Source of the DNA: a virus
DNA length: 22,427 bases
Direction: 5' to 3' (one strand)
IMG/VR virus record: IMGVR_UViG_3300009702_000349
Coordinates: 1 to 22,427 of that record
Made by a program: the position numbers and the translations under genes. The notes beneath the pieces are model-generated. The model made no database searches. It had not been told where the DNA came from and saw only the letters and a program-made list of their open reading frames with translations. This document shows positions 4,094-21,319 of the stretch, piece after piece (position 1 is the stretch's first letter; the number at the start of each line of letters is the position of its first letter).

Positions 4094-4122
4094 TTGACAA
4101 TCCGATATCGGTAGCCTATAAT
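4094..4122 (+). promoter_or_regulatory. Consensus sigma70-type promoter
   Basis: TTGACA at 4094-4099 and TATAAT at 4117-4122 are separated by exactly 17 bp, a perfect match to the bacterial housekeeping consensus. The predicted transcription start is near 4129. The context CGCTTGAC before the spacer recurs at the other promoters of this window (18457, 19345 and, reversed, 18351). An inverted repeat, TTCGG-G-CCGAA at 4078-4088, ends 5 bp upstream of the -35 box and could be an operator. Confidence 0.85.
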
Positions 4123-8974: not shown

Positions 8975-9782
8975 ATCGAATATAACGAAAATCAATCCTA
9001 ATCTTCCTGCATACATGCAAGAAGATGGTTTGATGGGGACAGAAGAACTTTCTAAGATTGTTCGTCCACCTTTATTGAGAATTATTCAAAAATCATCGAG
9101 TGATGATCTATTGGAGAAATTCGATAAAGGTGATCTAATCATACGTCCAGCAGATGCACTAGTTGCATCATACAATAACGGCAACCCTGATAAATTCCTG
9201 TTTACACCTATCATCTATTGGCGGGAGTTTGTTACATGGGCACCACTAACTTTGAAAGGGCAAGTTCCTGCAGTTCTTGGAACTACACGGGATGAAAATA
9301 GCGCTCTCGCTCGTAAGGCTATGGATGCTACATTACGAGAAGAAGAAATACAATATGAAGGTATGACATTTACCGCTAATCATGTTGCACACTTGAACTT
9401 TCTTTTTATTATTCAAAATAATGATGCTATGGGTTTTGAACCTGCCTTATTCTCATTCTGCCGTGGTGAATATGTAACTGGCACAAAATTCGCAAGTATG
9501 ATAAAACAGTGCCATGCGCCGATTTTCAGCCGAATCTATGAAGGGCAAGTATCACCTACACCACGAAGTAATCAAAAGGGTTCGTGGTATGGATTGGATA
9601 TCAATAATCCTACCGATGATATCAGTCCGTGGGTTGATAGTGATTTGTATGCCCAATATAAGGATTTGTATGAGAAGTTTTCCATTTCACTGAAAAGTGA
9701 TAATATCAAAACTGACTATGAATCTAGCGAATCTAGCGAATCTGATGAATCTGATGGGTATAATGATTCGGATGAATTCTAA
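8955..9782 (+). CDS. Phage protein with acidic tail, possible single-stranded-DNA-binding protein
   Basis: The protein has 275 residues. A central globular region has alternating beta-type segments (KFLFTPIIYWREFVTWAPLT, then LNFLFIIQNN, EPALFSFCRG, GSWYGLDI), compatible with an OB-like fold. The last 20 or so residues are an acidic serine tail that ends in phenylalanine (SDEF). Acidic tails with a terminal aromatic residue are characteristic of phage and bacterial single-stranded-DNA-binding proteins such as T7 gp2.5. The position directly before the primase-helicase fits. This is an inference from tail and context, and I cannot show homology to a known family. AAGGA lies 8 nt before the start. 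Confidence 0.5.
   Translation: MTEKRIESNITKINPNLPAYMQEDGLMGTEELSKIVRPPLLRIIQKSSSDDLLEKFDKGDLIIRPADALVASYNNGNPDKFLFTPIIYWREFVTWAPLTLKGQVPAVLGTTRDENSALARKAMDATLREEEIQYEGMTFTANHVAHLNFLFIIQNNDAMGFEPALFSFCRGEYVTGTKFASMIKQCHAPIFSRIYEGQVSPTPRSNQKGSWYGLDINNPTDDISPWVDSDLYAQYKDLYEKFSISLKSDNIKTDYESSESSESDESDGYNDSDEF
9720..9755 (+). repeat. 9-bp tandem repeats encoding an acidic ES(S/D) tail
   Basis: Two copies of GAATCTAGC are followed by two copies of GAATCTGAT, encoding ESSESSESDESD. The period is a multiple of three, so copy-number change would lengthen or shorten the acidic tail without breaking the frame. Confidence 0.8.
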
Positions 9783-9815
9783 AATTCTAAAATTCTAAAT
9801 TAGTAGGATATACAT

Positions 9816-9845
9816 TACCACTAAGAATGAAAGTTCTTAGTGGTA
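9816..9845 (+). promoter_or_regulatory. 12-bp hairpin covering the initiation region of the primase-helicase gene
   Basis: Bases 9816-9827 pair perfectly with 9834-9845 around a TGAAAG loop, ending three bases before the ATG at 9849. The right arm occupies the position where a ribosome binding site should be, and no clear site is seen otherwise. The T content after the stem (ATTTATG) is too low for a good terminator. Such a stem could act as a translational operator for autogenous control, or attenuate read-through from the upstream gene. Just upstream, 9776-9799 holds three 8-bp ATTCTAAA repeats that span the previous stop. Confidence 0.65.
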
Positions 9846-15695: not shown

Positions 15696-16179
15696 AAAGT
15701 TAGAAGTTATGATAGGATTAGTGGATTCAATAGCACAACTATCACAATGTAGACGCGCTTCAATAGGTTGTGTTATATTCCCTAATGACTGCACAAACAT
15801 TTTTTCTATCGGATATAATGGGCCACCTAGAGGGATATCTAATAATGCTTGCACTGGTATTACAGGTAAATGCGGATGCGCTCACGCAGAAGCGAACGCT
15901 TTAGCAAAGTTAGATGTTCAACATCCAGCACTAATAATAGCGCTAACTTGTACACCGTGTGAATACTGTGCAAATCTTATACTAAACACTAATAATGTGA
16001 TAGGCATAATTTATCGTTATGAATATAGAGATTTGACTGGATTGATAAAACTGGAATCTTGTGGAATCACTTGTTTTCGATCTAATGAAATAGAAGATTA
16101 TGCTTCATTAGAAGGTGAAGATTCAAAAGAGCACTATTGTCTGATAAGAAAATTACAAATCATAAAAAATAGAGCATAA
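15679..16179 (+). CDS. Deoxycytidylate (dCMP) deaminase-like protein
   Basis: The zinc deaminase signature is complete: H69-A-E71 in CAHAEANAL, and C94 and C97 in CTPCEYC, with E71 as the proton shuttle. NGPPRGISNNACTG upstream is typical of dCMP deaminases. The enzyme would convert dCMP to dUMP, the substrate of ThyX. I chose ATG 15679, which overlaps the kinase gene by 17 bp; ATG 15655 is also in frame but adds eight residues that the family does not need. At 166 residues the length is normal. The C-terminal 40 residues are less typical. Confidence 0.85.
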   Translation: MKRYAKKLEVMIGLVDSIAQLSQCRRASIGCVIFPNDCTNIFSIGYNGPPRGISNNACTGITGKCGCAHAEANALAKLDVQHPALIIALTCTPCEYCANLILNTNNVIGIIYRYEYRDLTGLIKLESCGITCFRSNEIEDYASLEGEDSKEHYCLIRKLQIIKNRA

Positions 16180-16183
16180 ACAA

Positions 16184-18124
16184 ATGGATAATATCATCAT
16201 ATCTAATGTGAATCAATTACCTGATATTTGTTCAGCAAACGATATCATAGTCGATTTTGAAACTACGAGTTTTGATAGTACTAGGGGTGGATTACACCCT
16301 TATAAAGGTGATAGAATCTGTGGTATTGCAGCGACAACACTAACTACTAATAAAGCATGGTATATCCCGATACGACATAAAGATATCTATTGTGATGATG
16401 AAGATATACAAAACATACCTATCGAAAATGCTATAAATTGGTTGAATGATTTACTGTCGAGTAAAGGTAAATGGATCAATCATAATGTAAAGTTTGATGC
16501 TCATTTTGCACACGTCGAAGGTATAACATCTATAAATCGAAATTTGATATGCACACTCACAGGCGCTAAATTAGTTTACAGCGACATGATGTATCAAGGT
16601 GGATATAGCCTTAGCAATCTATCGAAATTATGGTTGAAAAAAGATATTAGTTCTTACGATAAAGAAATAAAGCAGTATCTAAGGAATCTACACATTGGCA
16701 GAAAAGCCGCTAAAGATTATGCTTTAGTTCCAATAGATTTATTGGGCAGATATGCTTGTTATGATGTGAGAACAGCAAAAGATTTATATCTTTATATCGA
16801 AAATATACTGAATGATGATGAAAGAAAGATAGTTTGGGAAACTGAGAAAAAACTAACTAATGTACTATTTGATATTGAAAAAGAAGGTCTGAAAGTTGAT
16901 CTAGATGAATTGGAATGTAAAGAGTATGTAATATCAATAAAACTTAGACGATATGAAGAAGAACTAGAAAATATATTTGGTTTCAGTGTCAACCCAAAAT
17001 CTAATAAAGATTGCTATGAAGTTCTTATAAATCAATTTGATTTACCAGTTTTAGAACTTGTTGAAAAAACTAAGAATCCATCATTTGATAAGAATGCACT
17101 TAGTAAGTATTTAGAACTACCAGATGTAATAAATGACTCTAAGAAAGAAAAAGTTGTGAATATAATGCTAAAGCATCGAAAACTATCTACACTACTCTCT
17201 ATCTATATTCAACCTTATCAAATACATGCATCTAATAAAGATCAGATATTACATTCATCTTATAATCAATGTGTCCGAACGGGCAGACTTTCAAGCCGTC
17301 AACCGAATAGTCAACAGTTGAATAAGAAAGCAAAAGAACTTATACATTGTAATGAAGGCGAATCTTTTTTATCCGCCGACTATTCGCAAATCGAATTTCG
17401 CATTATGGTTCATGTTATAAAAGACATAGAAGCGATAAAAGCGTATCGTAATAATCCCGATACTGACTTTCATCAGTGGGTTGCCGATATGTGTAAAATA
17501 GACAGAAGTCCCGCAAAGAATGTAAACTTTGCAATTGGGTTCGGAGCCGGCAGGGCAAAGGTTCTTAGTATGTTATCTACTAATAAGTCTATAACTGCTG
17601 AAATGGGTGAAAAAATAGATAAAATGATTGAAAGAGATATTATCAATCCTAATGAAAGAATGAAAGTATTTGAAGATATGTGTAAAAAGCGTGCATCGTT
17701 TATATACAATCTTTATCATAACACCCTACCGGGTATTCGCACTTGCTCTAGACTTGCTTCTACTAAAACTGCTAATAGAGGTTATATTAGAACTTTGTAT
17801 AAAAGGCGTAGGCATATAAATAAAAATCATGCTCATATCGCATTCAACGCTTTGATACAAGGAACTGCAGCGGATATCCTGAAAGAGATACTAATAAAAG
17901 TTTCCCCTAGATATAATAAACGCATTAGAGAATGGGGAATACGAATCGCTGCTATTGTGCATGATGATATTCTATTCATCGGTCCGACTGAAATAATGCA
18001 CAATAAAGATGTTCAGGATTACATTCGAGATTTATTAGAATCACCAAGTTATGATTTTTTGATACCTATAAAAACTTCTATGAATATCTCAGATACAACA
18101 TGGGGTAATATGGAAAAAACATAA
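16184..18124 (+). CDS. Family A DNA polymerase with 3'-5' exonuclease domain
   Basis: The protein has 646 residues. The exonuclease domain has DFETT (D24, E26), NHNVKFDAHFA (Exo II) and YACYDVRTA (Exo III), so proofreading should be active. Polymerase motif A is DYSQIEFR starting at D399; motif B is R441-x3-K445-x3-F449-x3-F453; motif C is H593-D594-D595. E. coli Pol I has tyrosine at the position of F453 and HDE in motif C; F in place of Y is an uncommon substitution in motif B. No 5'-nuclease domain is present, as usual for phage enzymes. It should be the main replicative polymerase with the upstream primase-helicase. The start lies 4 bp after the deaminase gene with a weak ribosome binding site. 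Confidence 0.92.
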   Translation: MDNIIISNVNQLPDICSANDIIVDFETTSFDSTRGGLHPYKGDRICGIAATTLTTNKAWYIPIRHKDIYCDDEDIQNIPIENAINWLNDLLSSKGKWINHNVKFDAHFAHVEGITSINRNLICTLTGAKLVYSDMMYQGGYSLSNLSKLWLKKDISSYDKEIKQYLRNLHIGRKAAKDYALVPIDLLGRYACYDVRTAKDLYLYIENILNDDERKIVWETEKKLTNVLFDIEKEGLKVDLDELECKEYVISIKLRRYEEELENIFGFSVNPKSNKDCYEVLINQFDLPVLELVEKTKNPSFDKNALSKYLELPDVINDSKKEKVVNIMLKHRKLSTLLSIYIQPYQIHASNKDQILHSSYNQCVRTGRLSSRQPNSQQLNKKAKELIHCNEGESFLSADYSQIEFRIMVHVIKDIEAIKAYRNNPDTDFHQWVADMCKIDRSPAKNVNFAIGFGAGRAKVLSMLSTNKSITAEMGEKIDKMIERDIINPNERMKVFEDMCKKRASFIYNLYHNTLPGIRTCSRLASTKTANRGYIRTLYKRRRHINKNHAHIAFNALIQGTAADILKEILIKVSPRYNKRIREWGIRIAAIVHDDILFIGPTEIMHNKDVQDYIRDLLESPSYDFLIPIKTSMNISDTTWGNMEKT

Positions 18125-18128
18125 ATAT

Positions 18129-18165
18129 AAAAAAACCCCAATGAGCAAATCAATACTCATTGGGG
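18129..18165 (-). terminator. Intrinsic terminator for minus-strand transcription
   Basis: A perfect 10-bp stem (CCCCAATGAG at 18136-18145 with CTCATTGGGG at 18156-18165) is bordered on its left by seven A residues (18129-18135). Read on the minus strand this is a GC-headed stem followed by seven T residues, a classical intrinsic terminator. On the + strand no T run follows, so the orientation is leftward. It lies 4 bp after the polymerase stop. Confidence 0.85.
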
Positions 18166-18184
18166 CGGCTCATGTAATTTATAT

Positions 18185-18234
18185 CGACTGTTCCATTCTA
18201 ACTTGAATTCTAATAGTTTAGAATGGAACAGTCG
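18185..18234. repeat. 17-bp perfect inverted repeat
   Basis: CGACTGTTCCATTCTAA at 18185-18201 is perfectly complementary to 18218-18234, with a 16-base spacer. The loop on the minus strand contains TTAGAA, which could also pair with the TTCTAA at the top of the stem, giving an alternative fold. It lies inside the predicted minus-strand RNA. Confidence 0.8.
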
Positions 18235-18322
18235 GCTTTGTAAAGTGATTATATCTTAGATATCAGATAAGACATGAACCATAAAAACTTATTTGATTCT
18301 AAAATCTTTACTCGGCATGTAT

Positions 18323-18351
18323 AGTATAGCGTGCATGACTTCGATTGTCAA
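18323..18351 (-). promoter_or_regulatory. Minus-strand sigma70-type promoter
   Basis: On the minus strand TTGACA (18351-18346) and TATACT (18328-18323) are 17 bp apart. The preceding bases GGCGC are shared with the opposite promoter at 18457, so the two -35 regions form a 10-bp inverted repeat (18347-18356 and 18452-18461). The only sensible target is the small RNA unit ending at 18129. Confidence 0.75.
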
Positions 18352-18456
18352 GCGCCTATGGGAAATTTTCCGGGATTTTTCTGAAAATTGTCGTAAGTCT
18401 AGTGTTTACAGGCATTTACACGAATTATTTTTTTCGGGTTTTTCTCGGATTGGCGC
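18352..18456. other. AT-rich spacer between two divergent promoters
   Basis: No gene is present. The stretch holds several T-rich runs (for example ATTATTTTTTTC near 18425), a GGAAATTTTCC near-palindrome at about 18361 and a repeated TTTACA within GTGTTTACAGGCATTTACAC. It separates the two oppositely oriented promoters and could hold regulator sites or a replication origin, but nothing identifies it firmly. Confidence 0.4.
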
Positions 18457-18484
18457 TTGACTTCGGTATTGGATGTGCTATAAT
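18457..18484 (+). promoter_or_regulatory. Sigma70-type promoter for the small-gene operon
   Basis: TTGACT (18457-18462) and TATAAT (18479-18484) are separated by 16 bp, with GGCGC before the -35 box. The predicted start is near 18491. It would drive the genes from 18563 onward and is divergent from the small-RNA promoter. Confidence 0.8.
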
Positions 18485-18490
18485 GTAGGT

Positions 18491-18509
18491 GTCGAGCATA
18501 GGGCTCGGC
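18491..18509 (+). promoter_or_regulatory. Hairpin at the predicted 5' end of the transcript
   Basis: GTCGAGC (18491-18497) pairs with GCTCGGC (18503-18509), including one G-U pair, around ATAGG. The stem begins at the predicted first base of the RNA. The rest of the 5' leader to 18562 has no other clear element apart from a nine-codon open frame at 18521-18550. Confidence 0.6.
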
Positions 18510-18562
18510 CAAACCAAGAGATGGATATGATGACGACAACACCTGATTAGTTGGAATAAATT

Positions 18563-18865
18563 ATGAAAAATCTCATAGAACTACTCGAAAAAATGAATGT
18601 GGCTACACTACAGCATTCAGATACATTCAACTTTGATGCACATATCCTAGAAATAACTAATCTAATGCTAACTACTTCAATCTCTGAATCTCCATTATCT
18701 CCATTATCTGATATTCTACATCTCTATGATTTGGTTGGTGAATTCTACGATAATATTGAGATACTAACTATTCTGGGCAAGGCTCAAGATACAATAAAAA
18801 TTTGTCTCACAAAACTGAACAATAATCCATCATTATTTGACCAACCCATATCCTTCAAGAATTGA
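18563..18865 (+). CDS. Hypothetical protein (100 aa)
   Basis: First gene after the promoter at 18457. TTGGAATAAATT precedes the ATG, giving a weak GGA ribosome binding site. The product is helical and rich in leucine (MKNLIELLEKMNVATLQH, then DILHLYDLVGEFYDNIEILT), with no membrane segment or known motif. SPLSPLSD in the middle is encoded by a short duplication (tctccattatctccattatct). Function unknown. Confidence 0.5.
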   Translation: MKNLIELLEKMNVATLQHSDTFNFDAHILEITNLMLTTSISESPLSPLSDILHLYDLVGEFYDNIEILTILGKAQDTIKICLTKLNNNPSLFDQPISFKN

Positions 18866-18917
18866 TCTTGTCCTGTACTATTTCTTTCCGCAATAACGCG
18901 GGTTTGGAGTATGAATT

Positions 18918-19355
18918 ATGGATAAAACTGGAATTGTTGTACGTCTATGTTGTATTGCAGTAGACAAAGTAGATAAATCTACTAATCGACTTCGATATTT
19001 TCAACGAAAAGATTCTACATATATTTGTGCTATTGTCAGCAACAATCATCGAATAAACATATTCGATGTTGATTTGTCTGATGAATCTATTTCTAATCGA
19101 CTTGTCACTTGTGATCCAATTTGTGGTGCGAGAGAATACCGAAAGCGTATCATATTGGACGATGGTTTGAATGGCCTAGATGGTCTGGACGATGGTCTGT
19201 GGCTGTATGATGAGGACAAGCCGGACAAGCCGGACAAGCCGGACAAGCCGGACGATGAGGACGATGAGGACGATGAGGACGATGAGGACGATGAGGACGA
19301 TGAGGATCAGTCAAAAAAATCCTCGAAAAACTTTGTGAATAGGCTTGACTTTTGA
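18918..19355 (+). CDS. Hypothetical protein (145 aa) with repeat-built acidic tail
   Basis: GGAG lies 8 bases before the ATG. The first 90 residues are an unrecognised globular part (GIVVRLCCIAVDKVDKSTNR and so on). Residues from about 75 on become repetitive: GLNGLDGLDDGL, four DKP units, then six DDE units, followed by a short basic end (SKKSSKNFVNRLDF). The tail is almost entirely 9-bp tandem repeats. Long acidic tails occur in nucleic-acid mimics and in proteins that bind basic partners; no such role is shown here. The promoter of the next gene begins inside the final codons of this gene. Confidence 0.6.
   Translation: MDKTGIVVRLCCIAVDKVDKSTNRLRYFQRKDSTYICAIVSNNHRINIFDVDLSDESISNRLVTCDPICGAREYRKRIILDDGLNGLDGLDDGLWLYDEDKPDKPDKPDKPDDEDDEDDEDDEDDEDDEDQSKKSSKNFVNRLDF
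19215..19304 (+). repeat. Ten 9-bp tandem repeats in two blocks
   Basis: Four exact copies of GACAAGCCG (19215-19250) are followed by six exact copies of GACGATGAG (19251-19304), encoding DKP and DDE units in frame. The absence of silent differences between copies indicates recent expansion by slippage or unequal recombination. Confidence 0.95.
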
Positions 19356-19372
19356 GACGTTGAGCCTACAAT
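19345..19372 (+). promoter_or_regulatory. Sigma70-type promoter for the GC-rich small genes
   Basis: TTGACT (19345-19350) and TACAAT (19367-19372) are 16 bp apart, in the GGCTTGAC context shared with the other promoters. The predicted start is at or near 19379. The -35 box overlaps the last codons of the preceding gene. Confidence 0.75.
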
Positions 19373-19378
19373 GTACAT

Positions 19379-19401
19379 GTTGATCGGATGTTCCGATCGA
19401 C
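19379..19401 (+). promoter_or_regulatory. 10-bp hairpin at the predicted 5' end of the transcript
   Basis: Bases 19379-19388 pair with 19392-19401 with one G-U pair, around a TGT loop. The stem starts exactly at the predicted first base. The ribosome binding site AAAGGAAAG lies downstream and stays free. Confidence 0.7.
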
Positions 19402-19437
19402 GAAAGCAGAAACGGCTAAAATAAAGGAAAGCCGAAA

Positions 19438-19866
19438 ATGACAACCGCAACAGCAGATATCGAAAAAGTGGAAACCGTCCAGAATTCGGACGGTGGAAAA
19501 AAGAAGCGCGGTCGTACCCGTCGCCCCGATCACCCGTTGATCGGTTCGGAAGATGTTTCGCTTTATCCGTTCGCTTCAACACCTGACGACTACGATCCGA
19601 AAAAGCACGCACCATTGGCGAAAAATGACTTTGCCACTGAAGCCGCTTTTTTCGACTACAAAGCGGATCGTGCCGAACAGGCAGCGCTAAAATGGCGCAC
19701 GGAAGCAACCGAAGCCCGGAAGTTTGGGAGCCAGCGCGAGCGCGCATCACTCCGCAAACTTCGCGCCATGCGCGAGAAAGCGCACGAAATCGAGCGCAAA
19801 CTCGCAGCGCAAGGCGTGGACATTGAATCGCTCTTGTCCGATTTGGATGAGGACGACGATTCCTAA
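19438..19866 (+). CDS. Small charged GC-rich protein, probably coiled coil (142 aa)
   Basis: Strong start: AAAGGAAAG upstream of ATG. Residues 1-35 are disordered and basic (KKKRGRTRRPDHP), the middle has a YPFASTPDDYDPKKHAP segment, and residues 65-125 form a long charged helix (RAEQAALKWRTEATEARKFG and onward). The end is acidic (SDLDEDDDS). No family recognised. Base composition is far more GC-rich than in neighbours; line 19741-19800, for instance, has 36 G or C in 60, against 16 of 60 in 14581-14640. That could reflect recent acquisition or codon adaptation for strong expression. It has its own promoter, 5' hairpin and terminator, so it is a self-contained, probably highly expressed unit. 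Confidence 0.7.
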   Translation: MTTATADIEKVETVQNSDGGKKKRGRTRRPDHPLIGSEDVSLYPFASTPDDYDPKKHAPLAKNDFATEAAFFDYKADRAEQAALKWRTEATEARKFGSQRERASLRKLRAMREKAHEIERKLAAQGVDIESLLSDLDEDDDS

Positions 19867-19884
19867 ATCCTGATTCTTTATCAT

Positions 19885-19918
19885 CGACCGTAGGATTAGC
19901 GTTCTACGGTCGCTTTTT
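19885..19918 (+). terminator. Intrinsic terminator
   Basis: CGACCGTAG (19885-19893) pairs with CTACGGTCG (19904-19912) over 9 bp with a 10-base loop, followed by CTTTTT. It ends the unit that starts at 19379. Confidence 0.85.
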
Positions 19919-19925
19919 CCAAAGT

Positions 19926-20276
19926 ATGAAAAAATCAGAACTGAACCAAGAAACCGGAGTAAATAGCAGAATGAACAAGACTGAAAAGAACGAACGTCTA
20001 CACGACCTAGAAGTGATGCGATGGATCGTAAAGGATTTACGGCACTGGACCGATCCGCATACGCTTGAATCCGCAGTAAATCGCGTAAACAAGCGGATCG
20101 CAGAACTCGAAACAGAACGCATCGACCTTCAATCAAAACACGAAAGCGCTATAAAATCGGTCGAAAATGCCGAAAAGCGTTTGAAAAGAATGGAAAAAAA
20201 GTACATTGAGGATGTTATGATGAATGATATCATCAAATTGAAGAACATCCGATCGAAGTTGAAAAAGAATAAATAA
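19926..20276 (+). CDS. Small coiled-coil protein (116 aa)
   Basis: Begins 8 bases after the terminator T run, so it must be read through or have another promoter that I do not see. ATG 19971 (MNKTEKNERL) is an alternative start with GGAG further upstream. The product is almost wholly helical and charged, with heptad-like patterns (VNKRIAELETERIDLQSKHE, then SVENAEKRLKRMEKKY). No catalytic motif. Base composition in the first half resembles the preceding gene, suggesting a common origin. A structured RNA follows. Confidence 0.6.
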   Translation: MKKSELNQETGVNSRMNKTEKNERLHDLEVMRWIVKDLRHWTDPHTLESAVNRVNKRIAELETERIDLQSKHESAIKSVENAEKRLKRMEKKYIEDVMMNDIIKLKNIRSKLKKNK

Positions 20277-20300
20277 TAAGTAACAAACTAGTGGTATCCT

Positions 20301-20397
20301 GAGCCCTTGATTATAGATAAAGCGTAGCGATGAAACTCCCATACGCTAAGGACTAATGCAATAATTAGTCTACGCTCTATAATCAAGGGTTTTTTTT
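20301..20397 (+). ncRNA. Structured RNA ending in a strong terminator
   Basis: An outer stem of 13 perfect pairs (20304-20316 with 20377-20389), extended by G-U and A-U pairs into the U run, encloses two more helices. AGCGTAG (20321-20327) can pair with CTACGCT (20370-20376), or its first six bases with an identical TACGCT at 20342-20347. GACTAAT (20351-20357) pairs with ATTAGTC (20364-20370). Eight T residues follow the outer stem (20390-20397), so the whole also works as a terminator. The two copies of TACGCT make the inner pairings mutually exclusive. It does not fit a tRNA. It may be a 3' UTR element of the preceding gene or a separate small RNA. Confidence 0.65.
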
Positions 20398-20404
20398 ATT
20401 TGAG

Positions 20405-20413
20405 TGATATAAT
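20405..20413 (+). promoter_or_regulatory. Possible extended -10 promoter of the ligase operon
   Basis: TGA-TATAAT (20405-20413) matches an extended -10 element, directly after the terminator at 20397. No -35 box is clear; TTTTTTT lies at the expected distance. It would start transcription near 20420, within the 8-bp repeats. Confidence 0.4.
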
Positions 20414-20417
20414 ATAA

Positions 20418-20449
20418 ACATAGAAACATAGAAACATAGAAACATAGAA
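20418..20449. repeat. Four 8-bp tandem repeats in the ligase leader
   Basis: Four exact copies of ACATAGAA lie between the candidate promoter and the ribosome binding site (AAGGATAAGGAT). The 8-bp period is not a multiple of three, as expected outside coding sequence. Confidence 0.9.
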
Positions 20450-20476
20450 GCATAAGGATAAGGATAAAATAATATT

Positions 20477-21319
20477 ATGACATGGGCGCCTGAATGTTTG
20501 AAAGTGAAAAAATGGGATGAGTTCACGGAATATGGATATATACAACCTAAACTAGACGGAATCCGCCTAAGGGTATTCTTAGATTATGATAGGCGAGTCT
20601 ACGCATTCGGTAGAGATTCACGCGAGCACTTGGAATACTTTGGGCGGTATCCATTCCTAAAAATCCTACTGATGGATACATACACTTCTATGCCCAAAAT
20701 GTCTTATGTTGATGGAGAGTTATATTCACCCGGAAATTTGGCGAGTAGTGTTACAACTTTCTTAGCCAATAATGAACAATCGAAATTACGATATAAAGTT
20801 TTCAGTGTTCCATATTGGGATTCTAAAGACTTAGCGCATGAAAACCCGCTTGAAATATATGAAGATTTTAGAGATAAGTTTCCTTTTGTTGAAACTAGAC
20901 AGAGTTATCCTAATGATTTCAAAATAGAAGTGTTGAATGAGCGCATCGCTAGGATTAGAATAGAGGGTTATGTATTCAAGAATCTAAATTATTTGCAATG
21001 GGCAAAGTATAAACCTATAAAAACTGTCGATTGTGTTATAACAGGAATCGTGCAAGGTAAAGGTAAATATACTGGATTAGTTGGAGCAATAAAAGTTAGC
21101 GTATATAATAGTAATAACGAACTTCAAGAAATAGCGTCTACATCAGGAATGACAGATAGCGTTAGATTAGATATAACTGAGGACGAAAATCTTATCGGTA
21201 AAATCTGCGAAGTGGGATATCAATATGTAGGATCAGGTGGACGGCTTAGACACCCACGTTTTCTTAGGTTGCGTGATGATAAACCTATAAATCAATGCAC
21301 AAAAGATCAATTAGGATGA
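20477..21319 (+). CDS. ATP-dependent DNA ligase
   Basis: The protein has 280 residues, the size of a minimal phage ligase. Nucleotidyltransferase motif I is K25-L-D-G (QPKLDGIRLRV), the lysine taking the AMP. Motif III is VDGELYSPG, motif IV IEGYVFKN, and motif V lies in YLQWAKYKPIKTVDCVITG. The rest resembles a C-terminal OB domain (GKGKYTGLVGAIKVSVYN). It should seal nicks during replication or repair. The start is preceded by AAGGATAAGGATAAAAT. The stop overlaps the start of the reductase gene, suggesting coupled expression. Confidence 0.9.
   Translation: MTWAPECLKVKKWDEFTEYGYIQPKLDGIRLRVFLDYDRRVYAFGRDSREHLEYFGRYPFLKILLMDTYTSMPKMSYVDGELYSPGNLASSVTTFLANNEQSKLRYKVFSVPYWDSKDLAHENPLEIYEDFRDKFPFVETRQSYPNDFKIEVLNERIARIRIEGYVFKNLNYLQWAKYKPIKTVDCVITGIVQGKGKYTGLVGAIKVSVYNSNNELQEIASTSGMTDSVRLDITEDENLIGKICEVGYQYVGSGGRLRHPRFLRLRDDKPINQCTKDQLG

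Follow-up and report, generated by a model that had tools for sequence, protein, structure and literature searches.

Gene neighbourhood of the small RNA unit

The window analysed here is the whole of the 22,427-nt virus record IMGVR_UViG_3300009702_000349 (positions 1 to 22,427) and is a fragment of a tailed phage. Its left part carries tail-fibre-like genes, and its right part a replication and nucleotide block that encodes, always on the plus strand, an SNF2-like helicase, a primase-helicase, a family A DNA polymerase (dpol) and a ligase; the same block holds two genes that we take to be ThyX-like and ribonucleotide-reductase-like. A small RNA unit is predicted on the minus strand of a 438-nt non-coding gap, which extends from the dpol stop codon (18124) to the start of an orphan ORF (18563). 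The recognisable genes around the unit are all on the plus strand, in agreement with an earlier note on this DNA, according to which all genes run opposite to the unit. The gap is flanked by the following genes:

16184..18124, plus strand, family A DNA polymerase (dpol), with its stop codon 4 nt from the end of the small RNA U-tract
18563..18865, plus strand, orphan ORF of 100 aa, the first ORF downstream of the divergent promoter

Family searches with the 100-aa orphan ORF found no family.

Several other features were recorded in the window. A plus-strand promoter with 12/12 bases of the sigma-70 consensus and a 17-nt spacer (4094-4122) lies between the tail and replication blocks. Immediately 5' of the primase-helicase start, which may be 9849 instead of 9840, the region 9775-9845 contains three tandem AATTCTAA copies and a 12-bp inverted repeat. 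Tandem repeats were also found within a 145-aa orphan ORF (9-nt units, 19209-19306) and 5' of the ligase gene (ATAGAAAC repeated 5.4 times, 20412-20454). A 142-aa ORF (19438-19866) has relatives in the clade and a local G+C content of up to 0.475, against mostly 0.30-0.39 elsewhere in the window. When genome contigs were searched for the host with the primase alignment, the only match was weak and partial (30%, query residues 2-94) and came from a Paludibacteraceae MAG.

Promoters and terminator in the gap

The earlier note had proposed a minus-strand promoter TTGACA-17-TATACT and a terminator with a 10-bp stem and U7, and both were located (18351-18323 and 18166-18129). A second promoter faces the opposite way. 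The elements are:

18346..18351, minus strand, TTGACA, the -35 hexamer of the small RNA promoter, separated by 17 nt from the -10 hexamer
18323..18328, minus strand, -10 hexamer TATACT of the small RNA promoter, from the promoter scan
18129..18166, minus strand, intrinsic terminator: stem-loop (18166-18135) with 10 perfect pairs, or 13 when extended, followed by seven U (18135-18129)
18129..18316, minus strand, predicted small RNA of ~188 nt, its 5' end inferred 7 nt past the -10 hexamer and its 3' end placed at the U-tract
18457..18484, plus strand, divergent promoter TTGACT-16-TATAAT with TG before the -10 hexamer, from the promoter scan
18347..18356, minus strand, exact copy of GGCGCTTGAC around the -35 hexamer of the small RNA promoter
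18452..18461, plus strand, exact copy of GGCGCTTGAC at the divergent promoter

The small RNA promoter has 11 of the 12 consensus bases. Promoter-like sites are common in the window, so that this promoter alone proves nothing: 26 rows have at least 10/12 matches with spacers of 15-19, two other sites reach 12/12, and the region 16000-20500 contains 20 such sites versus 17.8 expected. The pair of signals is not chance. None of 400 dinucleotide shuffles of the window produced an 11/12 promoter and an equally strong terminator within 50-450 nt, and a weaker pair at this distance appeared in 9 of the 400. When the same scan was applied to 63 related loci together with the window (1,163,446 nt), four promoter-terminator units were obtained; three are plus-strand units of relatives with 10/12 promoters and weaker terminators, and the sole minus-strand unit is the one described here. 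These sequence statistics lend good support to a dedicated minus-strand non-coding transcription unit, which, as expected of an independently transcribed phage small RNA, would have a promoter and an intrinsic terminator of its own, both on the same strand.

The GGCGCTTGAC stretch has just two copies in the window when up to one mismatch is allowed; both are exact and both lie at the -35 elements of the back-to-back promoters. Between the dpol stop codon and 18457 no strong plus-strand terminator was detected, the lone match (ending at 18439) having 6/7 pairs, 3 of them G-C; the next strong plus-strand terminator ends near 19912.

Fold and coding capacity of the predicted RNA

Three structures are predicted within the RNA upstream of its terminator:

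18281..18311, minus strand, 5' hairpin (RNA nt 6-36) of 10 weak pairs, 3 of them G-U, with a z of only -1.65 alone
18167..18280, minus strand, long-range 9-bp stem (RNA nt 37-45 with 142-150) around the long hairpin, from the fold and weakly supported
18185..18234, minus strand, 17-bp perfect hairpin, all pairs Watson-Crick, with a 16-nt loop containing GAAUUC

The 17-bp perfect hairpin had already been claimed and is indeed present, with 17 Watson-Crick pairs; no perfect inverted repeat of the window is longer, the runner-up having 12 bp and the maximum in 30 shuffles being 14. The 188-nt RNA folds at -67.2 kcal/mol versus -31.9 kcal/mol in shuffles (z -9.2). Most of this signal comes from the long hairpin (z -8.3 alone) and from the terminator (z -6.3); z falls to -2.0 for the first 82 nt and to -1.8 when the long hairpin is left out, values close to background. 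The plus strand of the unit folds nearly equally well (z -8.3), and thus the fold cannot pick the strand, which is indicated by the promoter and the U-tract.

The symmetry of the fold is a point in favour of a different reading, in which the promoter has arisen by chance and the inverted repeats either work in plus-strand RNA, shielding the 3' end of the trimmed dpol mRNA, or form a DNA structure. The frequency of promoter-like sites and the absence of such a unit from the scannable relatives (see below) are also compatible with it. However, a T-run follows the terminator stem on the minus strand only, the promoter-terminator alignment had no equal among the shuffles, and the -35 region has ten bases in common with the divergent promoter. 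We consider this reading unlikely.

The stretch between the two signals had been put at about 190 nt without a meaningful open frame. By distance it is ~188 nt, and no open frame of at least 20 aa is wholly contained in the predicted transcript; two frames (23 and 34 aa) begin inside it and exit through the terminator, and one 20-aa frame begins in the promoter. In this absence of coding capacity the predicted transcript agrees with phage small RNAs. An Rfam search of the window gave no family at the gathering threshold; the matches up to E = 10 were microRNA-type hairpins and others far below gathering scores, with neither 6S RNA nor a CRISPR repeat among them. In sequence and structure the RNA matched no described family, oop included. 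Taken together, the fold, the uniqueness, the shuffles and the lack of a contained ORF sustain the dedicated non-coding transcript of the earlier note as a predicted unit; the roles that it proposed are not supported.

One conceivable role is that of a decoy against host defence, for example an RNA anti-CRISPR, described in PMC10651486 as a lone CRISPR repeat behind a promoter. A hairpin RNA of phage origin with its own promoter would suit such a decoy, but no CRISPR repeat family appeared among the Rfam matches up to E = 10, a comparison that covers the Rfam families. The hairpin itself would also count against a decoy, its 17-bp stem being longer than those generally known from CRISPR repeats. 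Of the readings considered, we hold this one to be the least probable.

An arm of the hairpin has a 20-nt identity to a primase-polymerase gene in an unrelated phage contig (L003, 7338-7357), and one frame of the small RNA reads LEWNSR, resembling the same gene. As a candidate gene remnant, the small RNA was rejected: the 20-nt identity was judged to be chance, and searches with the peptide up to E = 10 found nothing in Pfam or PHROG, nor did it give a meaningful match in phages.

Distribution in related phages

Relatives were collected through the primase-helicase, which retrieved 8 loci as a single query and 62 loci, including those 8, as an alignment (22-51% identical over the best segment). 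A GenBank phage record completes the set of 63 related loci (L004-L066), many of which have dpol and the surrounding genes in conserved order. In 47 of the 63 the dpol end and enough sequence were available for scanning, several of these loci being near copies of one another; 3 were too short and 13 had no complete dpol end. In the 700 nt after dpol, none of the 47 scannable relatives has a minus-strand promoter together with a minus-strand terminator (5 have a promoter-like site of 10/12 on that strand and 6 a terminator-like site), and the unit is therefore not a conserved RNA of the phage clade. The post-dpol region of the relatives is often long and A/T-rich, and a plus-strand promoter in it is common in the clade.

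According to the earlier note, a related genome lacking the promoter and terminator while retaining the flanking genes would refute the unit. Such genomes do occur, among distant relatives; as their dpol identity is only 27-45%, their lack of the unit points to lineage-specificity and not to lack of function. Further searches were directed at the unit itself. A dpol protein query found no close relatives with the unit, a pattern scan of viral contigs for the hairpin arm returned one unrelated gene only, and one for the terminator returned no match. Neither blastn of the small RNA region against phage and plasmid records nor nhmmer against 183 loci gave a match. As far as the searched collections show, the predicted minus-strand RNA seems private to the phage of the window; records very near its genome are possibly missing from these collections, and the absence of close sisters there says little.

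Other candidates for common elements were rejected. A palindrome scan for an operator or iterons in common with the relatives remained near background. Local alignments of the post-dpol gap against 9 relatives on both strands yielded 2 of 18 at p <=0.05, in short A/T-rich or promoter-like stretches. At least 119 stretches contain GGCGCTTGACA promoters, and among the matches listed 3 of 119 are followed by a terminator within 400 nt without a 60-aa ORF; one of the three (L099) is, by reading of its sequence, a tRNA gene and the other two look like chance, so no sister small RNA was recognised among the promoters listed.

The relatives show two features of their own. Serial type II hammerhead-like motifs are found 5' of the ribosome site and start codon in plus-strand genes, and many lie after dpol. 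Pattern matches number 37 in 16 of the 63 relatives, a count that takes one place in L048 twice and includes a doubtful match in L034; L016 has sites at 19414, 19886-19948, 21145, 21513 and 21990, and others are in L014, L017, L038, L048, L055, L063 and further loci. The L016 site at 19886-19948 is the only one above the Rfam threshold among five loci searched. The window contains no match to the hammerhead-like pattern. Serial hammerheads have already been described in prophages (PMC3088659). Separately, dpol is split at the same place (residue 400/401 of the window protein) in L005 (17439-18385), L013 (17225-18180) and perhaps L027; in L005 the frame is open through a 973-aa protein, and the insertion looks like an intein.

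Proposed role of the small RNA

The reading that we favour, although with somewhat less than even confidence, is that of a lineage-specific oop-like unit, antisense and convergent, whose ~188-nt non-coding RNA would limit read-through from the dpol operon. Starting from the sequence elements, their order, their improbability and the complementarity, all of which are observed, we infer transcription, read-through, duplex cleavage and timing as follows. The small RNA promoter, arranged divergently to that of the following block, would fire towards the 3' end of dpol and transcription would end at the unit's own terminator. RNA polymerase coming from the dpol operon is expected to read through the small RNA region because a strong plus-strand terminator is absent there. 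The small RNA would then be a perfect 188-nt antisense to the dpol read-through tail, and the loops of the 17-bp hairpin on both strands could make the first pairing contact. The sense-antisense duplex may be cleaved by RNase III in the dpol 3' UTR, and the convergent promoter may also impede sense transcription. As a result, the dpol operon would be shielded from the block beginning at 18457, and its timing set against that block.

The unit shares its arrangement with oop: it diverges from the next promoter, heads for the 3' end of the sense gene upstream and has its own terminator. The predicted RNA end 4 nt past the dpol stop codon is as expected for a unit fitted between two genes. Against the oop-like reading, the predicted RNA stops short of dpol, and an antisense RNA acting purely in cis would not require a strong fold. 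Moreover, since the unit is absent after dpol in 47/47 scannable relatives, control of dpol in the clade does not need it.

The earlier note had also suggested that the RNA primes replication from the adjacent control region. Apart from the location of the unit in a non-coding stretch between a DNA polymerase gene and an ORF, nothing supports an adjacent origin at which the RNA would prime or control replication: the gap showed no iteron array, the cumulative GC skew rises through it without a turn, and for lambda oop the primer role has been discarded, as stated in PMC3985674. We regard such a role as very improbable.

Search for pairing targets

The main rival to the oop-like reading is a trans-acting small RNA of the Hfq type, which would pair with host messages, as PreS pairs with dnaN in lambda, or bind a host protein; PMC12197685 reviews such RNAs of phages. 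We see it as a serious possibility, if a somewhat doubtful one. The promoter, the exposed A/U-rich loops and the seven-U terminator fit an Hfq-type RNA, as do the strong own fold and the lack of coding capacity, and two exposed loops have UUAGAAU(U)CAA in common. Yet a 7-mer occurring three times was seen in 9 of 200 shuffles, and pairing with the phage leaders was unremarkable. The best-ranked site was:

9773..9799, plus strand, three tandem AATTCTAA copies 5' of the primase-helicase gene, the best-ranked but non-significant pairing site for a small RNA loop

A match-count score, which counts repeats many times over, favoured the primase-helicase leader (p 0.002; 1/500 shuffles and 2/224 mocks). 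A duplex-energy scan of short phage leaders gave a best p of 0.01 in 24 tests and thus found nothing. With an accessibility-based energy and 244 mock RNAs not overlapping leaders, the signal was gone: the best of the 24 phage leaders (primase-helicase, -7.0 kcal/mol) was matched by 140/244 mocks on some leader, and 220/244 were as good by a two-site score; for the primase-helicase leader alone, 5/244 mocks were as good. No phage leader (n=24) therefore pairs with the small RNA better than with mock RNAs, and the regulatory role in replication or host genes that had been proposed receives no support from these scans. To a combined reading, in which a two-loop regulator would pair through UUAGAAU and UUAGAAUUCA with the tandem AATTCTAA copies (9773-9799) and, as antisense to the dpol tail, balance primase-helicase against polymerase, we give very little credence.

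Comparison with known systems

As predicted, the RNA gene is well-formed and ordinary in kind, phage antisense and small RNAs having been reviewed (PMC12197685); unusual are its apparent restriction to one lineage and its place beside a polymerase gene. If made, it would add a lineage-specific antisense RNA beside a polymerase gene to the few phages with known ones, and one could then test cleanly whether replication operons are insulated by short convergent transcripts. Given that none of the scannable relatives has it, it would be a recent RNA gene, useful for questions on the origins of phage RNA genes.

The plasmid antisense RNAs CopA and RNAI target a leader or a primer of replication. 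They resemble the predicted RNA as stem-loop antisense RNAs with their own promoter and terminator and with complementary loops on the sense strand, whereas the RNA of the window faces the tail downstream of a polymerase gene. Phage RNAs that depend on Hfq, such as PreS, are likewise non-coding, and the U-rich end of the predicted RNA may permit trans action of their kind, but for it no target was found among the phage leaders. Among cis-encoded antisense RNAs of phages, PAK_P4as15 and nine RNAs of phiR1-37 are described in PMC12197685, which presents their roles as largely open. Like the predicted RNA they come from phage genomes; they have been seen as RNA, whereas the RNA of the window is predicted from a clear promoter and terminator.

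The closest parallel in arrangement is lambda OOP (pO-oop-tO). It is 77 nt long versus ~188 nt for the predicted RNA, no sequence relation between the two was found, and its upstream gene is a lysogeny regulator, in place of the polymerase in the window. The oop RNA runs from pO to its own terminator and is antisense to the 3' end of cII (PMC5869508, PMC3985674), overlapping the coding end by 52 bases (PMC5869508), whereas the predicted RNA ends at 18129, 4 nt short of the dpol stop codon (ending at 18124), and has no such overlap. The oop RNA acts with RNase III, and the cuts described fall outside cII; in addition, pO activity reduces convergent transcription from pR (PMC5869508, PMC3985674). 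In common with OOP, the predicted unit would produce a short RNA from a promoter beside replication genes, with its own terminator, directed against the 3' end of the gene upstream, and the sense operon would continue past it.
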